Assembly (NCBI RefSeq): GCF_030814115.1
Contig: NZ_JAUSUP010000016.1
Location: 1 to 37,738, forward strand
Length of the DNA: 37,738 nucleotides
Direction of reading: 5' to 3'
Origin: Alkalibacillus filiformis
GTDB lineage: Bacteria > Bacillota > Bacilli > Bacillales > Alkalibacillaceae
Made by a program: the position numbers and the translations under genes. Under the pieces are notes generated by a model. It saw only the letters and a program-made list of their open reading frames with translations. It did not search any database and was not told where the DNA came from. Shown here piece by piece: positions 34,899 to 36,518 of the stretch. How positions within the stretch are numbered: position 1 is the first letter of the stretch; each line of letters starts with the position of its first letter.

Positions 34899-35453
34899 AT
34901 GCGCAAAACTTTTTTAATTATGACCTTTATTACCGCTTATGCCGTTTATCACTTCTCATTTCATTACTTGGACTTCTCGGGCTCACCCTATAACCATGAA
35001 GGAAATGAAGATGAAGTAGGTGAACATACATATGCCCAAATTAATGAAGAAGATTACTTGGAAGTTTCCTATTCTAACCAAGTCATTCATATGGAAGAAA
35101 CAGATTTAGTTGCGCAATATGAAGATCAATTTAATGAATTAGAAGAATCAATCTTAAGTGATATTGAGTCATTGAAAGACGATATAATAGATGAAGTTGG
35201 GTCAGGTCAAAGTATTATAACCCAAGGGTTTAACCTATTGAAGTATGAACGCGAAGCAAATGAAATAGAAGAAAAAGCTGACCGACAGTTTGAAACACTT
35301 ATAGCAGAAATGGAATCAGCAGCCAATGATCATTTAATTCCTAAACAAACAATCGATGAATTTAAAGAACAATATGAAACAAGGAAAGATCATATTAAGA
35401 ATTCTATTTTCAAAGAGGTTAATAGTTGGTTAGAAGAAAGTGAAGCTTTTTGA
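34899..35453 (+). CDS. Unknown membrane-anchored acidic coiled-coil protein
   Basis: I do not recognise this 184-residue product. It starts with a hydrophobic segment (about 3-26, MRKTFLIMTFITAYAVYHFS) that is a signal anchor or an uncleaved signal peptide without a lipobox Cys. The rest is acidic and mainly helical, with coiled-coil potential across about 70-180 (QFNELEESILSDIESLKDDI, EANEIEEKADRQFETLIAEM). No catalytic motif is visible. The ribosome binding site is modest (AGGCAGGT). It lies just upstream of the riboswitch-SinI unit but has no shared promoter that I can see. Confidence 0.75.
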   Translation: MRKTFLIMTFITAYAVYHFSFHYLDFSGSPYNHEGNEDEVGEHTYAQINEEDYLEVSYSNQVIHMEETDLVAQYEDQFNELEESILSDIESLKDDIIDEVGSGQSIITQGFNLLKYEREANEIEEKADRQFETLIAEMESAANDHLIPKQTIDEFKEQYETRKDHIKNSIFKEVNSWLEESEAF

Positions 35454-35580
35454 CATTTTAGGTTCTTTTATCCATGAAATTCAAAAACAACCTATTATTT
35501 TGTAGAAATTTTTGGATGAAAAGGGGCTATTAAATCATTGAAAATAACTATAGTATTATAGTTAGAATAATAATTTCGGT

Positions 35581-35659
35581 GTAGAAAAAGGCAAACCTTT
35601 TGAAAAAAGGGGACGCAAAGCTGTTGGTCTAAGGGGAAAACTATGATTGCAAGGCTACC
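35581..35659 (+). ncRNA. Cyclic-di-GMP-I (GEMM-I) riboswitch
   Basis: The aptamer core is readable: GGCAAACC, a P2 hairpin with GAAA-type loop (CCTTTTGAAAAAAGGGG), then ACGCAAAGC, the tetraloop-receptor-like GGTCTAAGG, and the closing AAGGCTACC. GTAG at 35581 can pair with CTAC at 35655 as P1. No intrinsic terminator lies between aptamer and gene. The ribosome binding site GGGGGA begins only 10 nt past the aptamer, so control of translation is likely; ON or OFF cannot be told by eye. Confidence 0.87.
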
Positions 35660-35680
35660 TCATCTGTTGGGGGAATGAGT

Positions 35681-35818
35681 ATGCGTACATTGGCTATGGA
35701 GATTCGTTTACAGAAGGGGCTTGACAACGAATGGGTTCAGCTAATGAAAGAAGCTAGAGAGGCCGGAATTAGTAAAGAAGACGTCAAAGAGTTTTTAGCA
35801 TCAAACAAAGTAACTTAA
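35681..35818 (+). CDS. SinI-like antirepressor (Sin domain), 45 aa
   Basis: This small gene directly after the c-di-GMP riboswitch codes for MRTLAMEIRLQKG followed by LDNEWVQLMKEAREAGISKE and DVKEFLASNKVT. The LDxEWVxLMxEAxxAGIS pattern is that of the Sin dimerisation domain. In B. subtilis SinI uses this helical hook to pull SinR off biofilm-gene operators. Only the Sin domain is present, with no helix-turn-helix, so it is SinI-like and not SinR-like. I chose ATG 35681, 6 nt after GGGGGA; the ATG at 35675 is too close. A strong shared terminator follows. No sinR is in this window. Confidence 0.85.
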   Translation: MRTLAMEIRLQKGLDNEWVQLMKEAREAGISKEDVKEFLASNKVT

Positions 35819-35819
35819 T

Positions 35820-35855
35820 AACTAAACGGGGTGGTGATCGCCACCCCGTTTAGTT
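35820..35855. terminator. Bidirectional terminator between sinI-like and IDEAL genes
   Basis: Perfect 15-bp stem AACTAAACGGGGTGG / CCACCCCGTTTAGTT with a TGATCG loop. T-rich flanks on both strands suit the two convergent genes, whose stops lie within 3 nt of it. Confidence 0.93.
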
Positions 35856-35857
35856 AT

Positions 35858-36301
35858 TTATTCATTTAAATATAAATAACCAGTCAACTCTAAAAACTGA
35901 TCCTTATCTCCTTGCAATAGTGATTGATCAATTAGGCGATATACATTTTGCTCTACCAAATGAGATATGACTAAATCTACTTCTGCTTGTGTCACACGGG
36001 GCTGCTCGTCAAAATACTCGTCTGTAATATTATTTAACTGCTCTTCAAACGATTCAAACCTCATCAGTTTATAGAGTGGCAACTTAATATAGTTAACCCC
36101 TTTTTGAAACACAAATTGATCCTGTTTATTGACAATTTCACGATTGTAACGATCAATGACAATTTCTCTAGCCTCTAACGGAATGAAATGATATAGCTGG
36201 TCATCCATCACAACTGAAAAGTATTGGAAAGCTAATATAATACGGACAAACCGCTCATCTTTCTTAACATAATAAGGTTTTAACATTTTTACCGATTGCA
36301 T
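35858..36301 (-). CDS. IDEAL-domain protein
   Basis: The 147-residue product has an unrecognised N-terminal part (about 1-90, with beta-like stretches such as FVRIILAFQYFSVVM and QLYHFIPLEAREIVIDRYNR). A C-terminal helical IDEAL-type motif follows (YRLIDQSLLQGDKDQFLELT, about 122-141), the short sequence that gives this domain its name in Bacillales proteins. Such proteins are of unknown or varied function. ATG 36301 follows GGGGTGG by 5 nt; the frame is open 54 nt further up without a better site. Convergent with the sinI-like gene. Confidence 0.7.
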   Translation of the reverse strand: MQSVKMLKPYYVKKDERFVRIILAFQYFSVVMDDQLYHFIPLEAREIVIDRYNREIVNKQDQFVFQKGVNYIKLPLYKLMRFESFEEQLNNITDEYFDEQPRVTQAEVDLVISHLVEQNVYRLIDQSLLQGDKDQFLELTGYLYLNE

Positions 36302-36518
36302 GGCCACCACCCCAACATTAAAAGTTTGAATATTCTGTTTATTATAATTATGCACGAAAATCTAAAAAAATTAAAGAAAAACACATTTTAATTTACTCTA
36401 AAACTTATATAAACCGTCAAAATTAGATATAATAATAGATAATAGTTTCACATTTTTTTCCGCTATATTAGAATAGTAACAAATGGAGAGAGAAACCAAA
36501 GAGAGTTGGTGAGATTTA

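Follow-up and report, generated by a model that had tools for sequence, protein, structure and literature searches.

The leader of a sinI-like gene in the window, the 37,738-nucleotide stretch of Alkalibacillus filiformis DNA analysed here, carries an aptamer of the c-di-GMP class I. Our reading, to which we give a probability of roughly 0.74, is that this RNA is a riboswitch by which c-di-GMP turns on the translation of an antirepressor of the SinI type, controlling SinR and the matrix. The decision of Bacillus between swimming and sticking is taught through B. subtilis, in which SinI is induced by Spo0A. Riboswitches of this class and SinI proteins were known before, and at least one published record already joins the two; a recurring ON-type platform looks new, as does the presence of the link in most of the completely sampled SinI-bearing genomes. 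If the predicted switch works, many genera feed c-di-GMP straight into the matrix antirepressor through one RNA, and this would explain, quite generally, how biofilm formation in these bacteria could be driven by c-di-GMP.

The features of the locus identified in the window are the following:

35578..35664, plus strand, c-di-GMP-I aptamer including the P1 stem (from the Rfam matches and the P1 pairs given below)
35658..35672, plus strand, predicted alternative hairpin sequestering the Shine-Dalgarno (SD) sequence, CCUCA 35658-35662 with UGGGG 35668-35672 (from folding)
35669..35674, plus strand, SD-like GGGGGA, 6 nt 5' of the ATG (from the sequence)
35681..35818, plus strand, sinI-like gene of 45 codons, ATG at 35681 and stop codon at 35816-35818 (from PF08671)
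35817..35858, strong terminator-like stem 3' of sinI, possibly bidirectional (19 pairs on the plus strand, with a minus-strand match too)

The aptamer and the sinI-like gene of the window

The covariance-model search gave a match to RF01051 (c-di-GMP-I, or GEMM-I) at 35580-35662 on the plus strand, with 73.5 bits for a gathering score of 35, and a match to RF03167, the GGC variant, at 35581-35663 on the same strand, with 63.4 bits for a gathering score of 59. The GEMM-I aptamer of the preliminary description was thus recovered above gathering by both models. The P1 stem of the window is made of 35578-35581 and 35583-35584 paired with 35659-35664, with U35582 bulged. The contact-nucleotide test for RF01051 found GGC, GCAAAG and UACC in the window sequence, the contact nucleotides of c-di-GMP-I RNA being G20, A47 and C92 in the Vc2 numbering. 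Although the RF03167 score passes, the consensus of that family has GCGAAG where the window has GCAAAG, and the canonical class RF01051 therefore fits better; identity as a GGC variant was rejected. In sequence, structure and contact nucleotides the element resembles the known c-di-GMP-I RNAs, from which it differs by its target, a putative SinR antirepressor, and by its predicted platform, an SD-sequestering hairpin built with the 3' strand of P1. The preliminary description had placed the end of the aptamer 10 nt before the ribosome binding site, whereas the distance from the end of the Rfam model to the SD is 5 nt.

The 45-codon gene had been described as a Sin-domain gene and its product indeed matches the SinI family PF08671 with 54.7 bits (cut-off 31.4, 8.2e-15), with no HTH family listed for it in the Pfam profile search. 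PDB matches include the SinI chains 1b0n_B and 5tmx_A (3.4e-6); for the top-listed match, 8v2d, a repetitive component named O43_129, no stretch passes by itself. The NCBIfam SinI equivalog cut-off was missed by the window protein (39.8 for a cut-off of 80), and the product is therefore termed SinI-like and not a strict equivalog. A second in-frame ATG, at 35675, is located 5' of the ATG at 35681 and, being too near the SD, is an unlikely start codon. The 19-pair stem at 35817-35858 corresponds to the strong terminator previously noted after the gene, and an IDEAL-domain gene (35858-36355) is convergent with the sinI-like gene. No plus-strand promoter was listed in the scan of 35440-35900. At 34899-35453 on the plus strand, an ORF of 184 aa has an N-terminal hydrophobic stretch, recognised by eye, and is without a Pfam match above the cut-off.

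Recurrence of the riboswitch-sinI pairing

The preliminary description treated the arrangement as an isolated oddity, but the pairing is common. In the family of the window, the SinI-domain model, which also recognises SinR, matched in 18 of the 22 genomes, with no match in G001, G006, G007 and G009. A c-di-GMP-I element was located 5' of a short SinI gene, on the same strand, in 15 of the 18 SinI-bearing genomes; the 19 pairs found there have 47-64 nt between the riboswitch and the SinI domain, and 13 of the 32 short SinI are without a riboswitch. The other families of the order were sampled with one genome for each of 25 families, taken as the first listed outside the window's family with a SinI match. 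The pairing was present in 20 of these 25 genomes (24 pairs, 41-74 nt), while 19 of the 43 short SinI matches had no riboswitch. Most SinI-bearing genomes sampled completely, 35 of 43 over the family and the other families, thus carry the link, and a SinI-domain frame of at least 100 aa is found in 14 of the 15 pair-bearing genomes of the family and in all 20 of the other families.

Among the named loci, riboswitch-sinI is present at 55 of 71, a proportion biased upwards because the alignment used to find these loci had riboswitch-linked SinI proteins as its seed. The 55 come from 20 named genera and one MAG, and the genera include Metabacillus, Peribacillus, Fictibacillus, Rossellomorea, Thalassobacillus, Salibacterium and Alicyclobacillus. 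The pairing is missing at the 16 other named loci, among them those of B. atrophaeus (L078) and B. tequilensis (L119). Loci L052 and L053 seem to come from the species represented by genomes G003 and G004. Of the 16 aptamers used to build the riboswitch model R1, 11 were linked to sinI, and the model may therefore favour elements of this kind; in an Rfam check of R1 on 20 of the 71 loci, the 10 R1-positive loci all passed and none of the 10 R1-negative loci did.

Two settings were observed. In one, sinI stands alone and distant from sinR, as in the window, Piscibacillus and Aquisalibacillus, and in several relatives this lone sinI adjoins an AI-2E-family transporter gene that is, by eye, apparently the same one. 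The second setting has the riboswitch followed by sinI near sinR. Of the 24 pairs from the other families, 11 have a SinR-like frame on the same strand at no more than 800 nt, 6 have one on the opposite strand and 7 have none. The sin locus of Pseudalkalibacillus caeni (L060) is expanded, with two riboswitch-sinI units, three short SinI and two SinR-like genes in 6 kb.

SinR, the adjoining cluster and the probable target of the SinI-like protein

The genome to which the window belongs (2.7 Mb, 97.89% complete) contains SinI domains above the cut-off at three places: the window gene, a second short one located at C1:69650 and, on C10, a protein of 109 aa. Residues 1-107 of the 109 of this last protein (L015:10664-10993, minus strand) align with B. 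subtilis SinR (1b0n_A) with 138.9 bits, and the genome search for sinR suggested in the preliminary description thus gave a near full-length homologue. The sinR gene is convergent with genes for a sipW-like signal peptidase, for two proteins with SipW-dependent signal-peptide domains above the cut-off, for an LPXTG protein and for a sortase. This cluster resembles a TasA-type matrix cluster; none of its proteins passed the TasA/TapA-type models. The LPXTG protein and the sortase come after the SipW-dependent proteins (L015 7528-10623, plus strand), which suggests wall anchoring of a matrix fibre. Two GTTCTTT boxes, of the consensus type of the SinR operator, are located 5' of sipW (L015 7421 and 7505), but the 20 kb of this locus contain 13 copies of GTTCT[CT]T and the case for a SinR operator is weak. 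The genome also encodes abundant c-di-GMP enzyme domains, with 7 GGDEF and 6 EAL matches, and has six RF01051 matches above the cut-off.

The aptamer might be real while the SinI-like protein targets a SinI-domain protein other than SinR. In line with this, the window sinI does not adjoin sinR, the window protein stays below the equivalog cut-off, and the genome holds another short SinI gene (L003 1444-1605, at C1:69650), for which no riboswitch match was found; the SinI-domain search of the genome found no sinI beside sinR on C10. We regard such a different target as unlikely, because the single SinI-domain frame of at least 100 aa above the cut-off in this genome is SinR-like, and because a SinR-like ORF is present in the same locus at 40 of the 55 riboswitch-sinI named loci.

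A predicted translational ON switch in the window

In the mechanism that we propose, in the absence of c-di-GMP the CCUCA strand, which would otherwise close the aptamer, would pair with the UGGGG of the SD and little SinI would be made, so that SinR would stay active and the matrix operon repressed. At high c-di-GMP, the aptamer would fold and P1 would reclaim the CCUCA strand; the freed SD would allow SinI to be made, SinI would bind SinR and the matrix genes would be released.

The two helices on which this mechanism depends are mutually exclusive in the window, the 3' strand of P1 being common to both. The anti-SD hairpin has a folding energy of -5.8 kcal/mol, pairs 4 SD bases and stands at 0.043 in the comparison with shuffled sequences. 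In the fold of 35570-35710, the accessibility of the SD increased from 0.05 without constraint to 0.69 with P1 forced. In the same fold the anti-SD form was favoured over the P1 form by 5.5 kcal/mol, a cost that ligand binding would have to pay. The hairpin had the lowest energy in 3 of the 5 window stretches folded; the 2 others, which end at 35720, instead pair the early coding region with CCUC and some of the SD bases. No terminator-like stem was found in the window between the aptamer and the start codon, and a transcription-terminator platform for the window sinI was ruled out on this ground. The architecture of the leader points to translational control, as the preliminary description had predicted.

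Conservation of the predicted platform in related leaders

The hairpin test was extended to 61 sinI leaders. When the segment running from the conserved C to the SD was folded to minimum energy, 53 of them had at least 2 SD bases paired with the 3' strand of P1. The leader hairpin falls below 0.05 relative to dinucleotide shuffles in 34 leaders, and not in the 27 others; in this test the pattern removed a few bases of L079 and, in a few leaders (L083, L121), may have selected the wrong SD. Eight leaders fall short of the pairing criterion, and in three of these eight, L065, L090 and L099, the hairpin uses the G run beside the picked SD motif. The gain in SD accessibility exceeded 0.3 in 21 of the 39 leaders tested among the 61. 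In the common form of the sinR-proximal leaders, CCUGAAAUAC...GUAUUUUAGGAGG forms a hairpin of ten pairs in which half of the SD is engaged, and P1 is UCAG/CUGA.

This form was examined in an alignment (A3) of 23 distinct leaders, all selected for an AAUAC-type hairpin and drawn from 24 of the 29 leaders listed, with the near-duplicates L096, L098, L100, L104 and L122 left out. The anti-SD helix was paired in 96.0% of the cells compared to 28-51% when slid, a level reached by 0 of 500 shuffles, and double changes affect 2 of its pairs, a number that 7 of 500 shuffles attain. P1, which has four columns in common with the anti-SD helix, was paired in 84.8% of the cells compared to 10-51% when slid, with a thin covariation, since 257 of 500 shuffles reach the same single pair with double changes. 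For the window-type P1 (10 leaders), 80% of the cells were paired; the two double-change pairs seen are reached by 69 of 500 shuffles, and the slid version has three.

Strand exchange had first been proposed through CTGTTGG, found at 35621 and 35664. Both copies are present, but only 1 of the 61 sinI leaders, the window itself, has the two, so the repeat is not a conserved switch and was rejected as such. The widespread exchange is instead that of P1 with the anti-SD hairpin.

The same helices bear on the direction of the switch. An OFF switch, in which c-di-GMP would lower SinI, favour SinR and repress the matrix, would accord with the existence of both "on" and "off" c-di-GMP riboswitches, as named in PMC7793685, with the lack of a clear anti-SD hairpin in some leaders and with the variation of the window fold according to the stretch chosen. 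It is nevertheless improbable, given that a strand common to P1 and the anti-SD helix means that ligand binding exposes the SD. The P1 3' strand is complementary to the SD, and under this model binding of the ligand would turn translation on.

Translation and RNA decay are often coupled, and the control could for this reason act mainly on transcription or RNA decay with an incidental anti-SD helix. Such control is hardly expected for a window leader in which no terminator-like stem separates aptamer and start, and with an anti-SD helix as regularly paired as that of A3. Translational control by c-di-GMP remains our preferred reading.

As for the ligand, the GGC/AGC position separates cGAMP binding from c-di-GMP binding. 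AGC replaces GGC in 2 of the 61 sinI leaders, at 2479-2563 of L083 (Oceanobacillus halophilus) and 2872-2955 of L108 (Bacillus sp. OV166), whereas GGC is present in the window and 58 others (22 read by eye). Some c-di-GMP-I homologues recognise cyclic AMP-GMP (PMC9495176), but with this predominance of GGC and with the abundance of GGDEF and EAL domains in the genome, 3',3'-cGAMP or another dinucleotide is a very improbable ligand.

Comparison with known systems

In the literature covered, which contained few subscription papers and none of the first GEMM papers, no account of the platform or of the spread of riboswitch-sinI was found. For Bacillus methanolicus MGA3, Table 4 of a 2015 transcriptome lists a putative (c-di-GMP)-sinI, BMMGA3_08510, which is like the window a putative c-di-GMP riboswitch in a sinI leader (PMC4342826). 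Riboswitch control of sinI is thus not wholly unrecorded, although the sentence and the table row that make up this record state neither direction, platform, conservation nor partner (PMC4342826). In Paenibacillus sp. FSL P4, an element of the same riboswitch class, there beside a SinR homologue, was read as antisense to the SinR-like gene; an action from the opposite strand was proposed, and sinI is unmentioned in the passage on this element (PMC9943018). Since a convergent sinR follows riboswitch-sinI in 6 of the 24 pairs above, an unannotated sinI may lie under the Paenibacillus element.

The B. subtilis system is similar in having SinI and SinR homologues and a matrix operon adjoining sinR. 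It differs in that sinI is induced by phosphorylated Spo0A (PMC8470499), in that its control genome gave no RF01051 match, and in that sinI is beside sinR, unlike in the window's genome. Direct activation of sinI translation by c-di-GMP may be the usual, and probably old, input into SinI-SinR across the order, with the Spo0A wiring of B. subtilis being derived and having hidden it; we hold this to be a real possibility, at slightly less than even odds. In B. thuringiensis, sinI is up at high c-di-GMP according to unpublished array data cited in PMC7793685, the same direction as an ON switch, with no sinI riboswitch claimed in that passage. The Bc1 and cbpA riboswitches of B. thuringiensis have the same aptamer class as the window, in Bacillaceae, but regulate a chemotaxis gene and an adhesin, and Bc1 uses terminators (PMC11218506, PMC7423583). 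In the window's genome, strong terminator-like stems were found downstream of 3 of the 5 other c-di-GMP-I elements (L008, L010 and L012). The element of L008 (1501-1587, minus strand) is the best c-di-GMP-I element of this genome, and the two genes that come after it and its stem look by eye like a HATPase/STAS pair.
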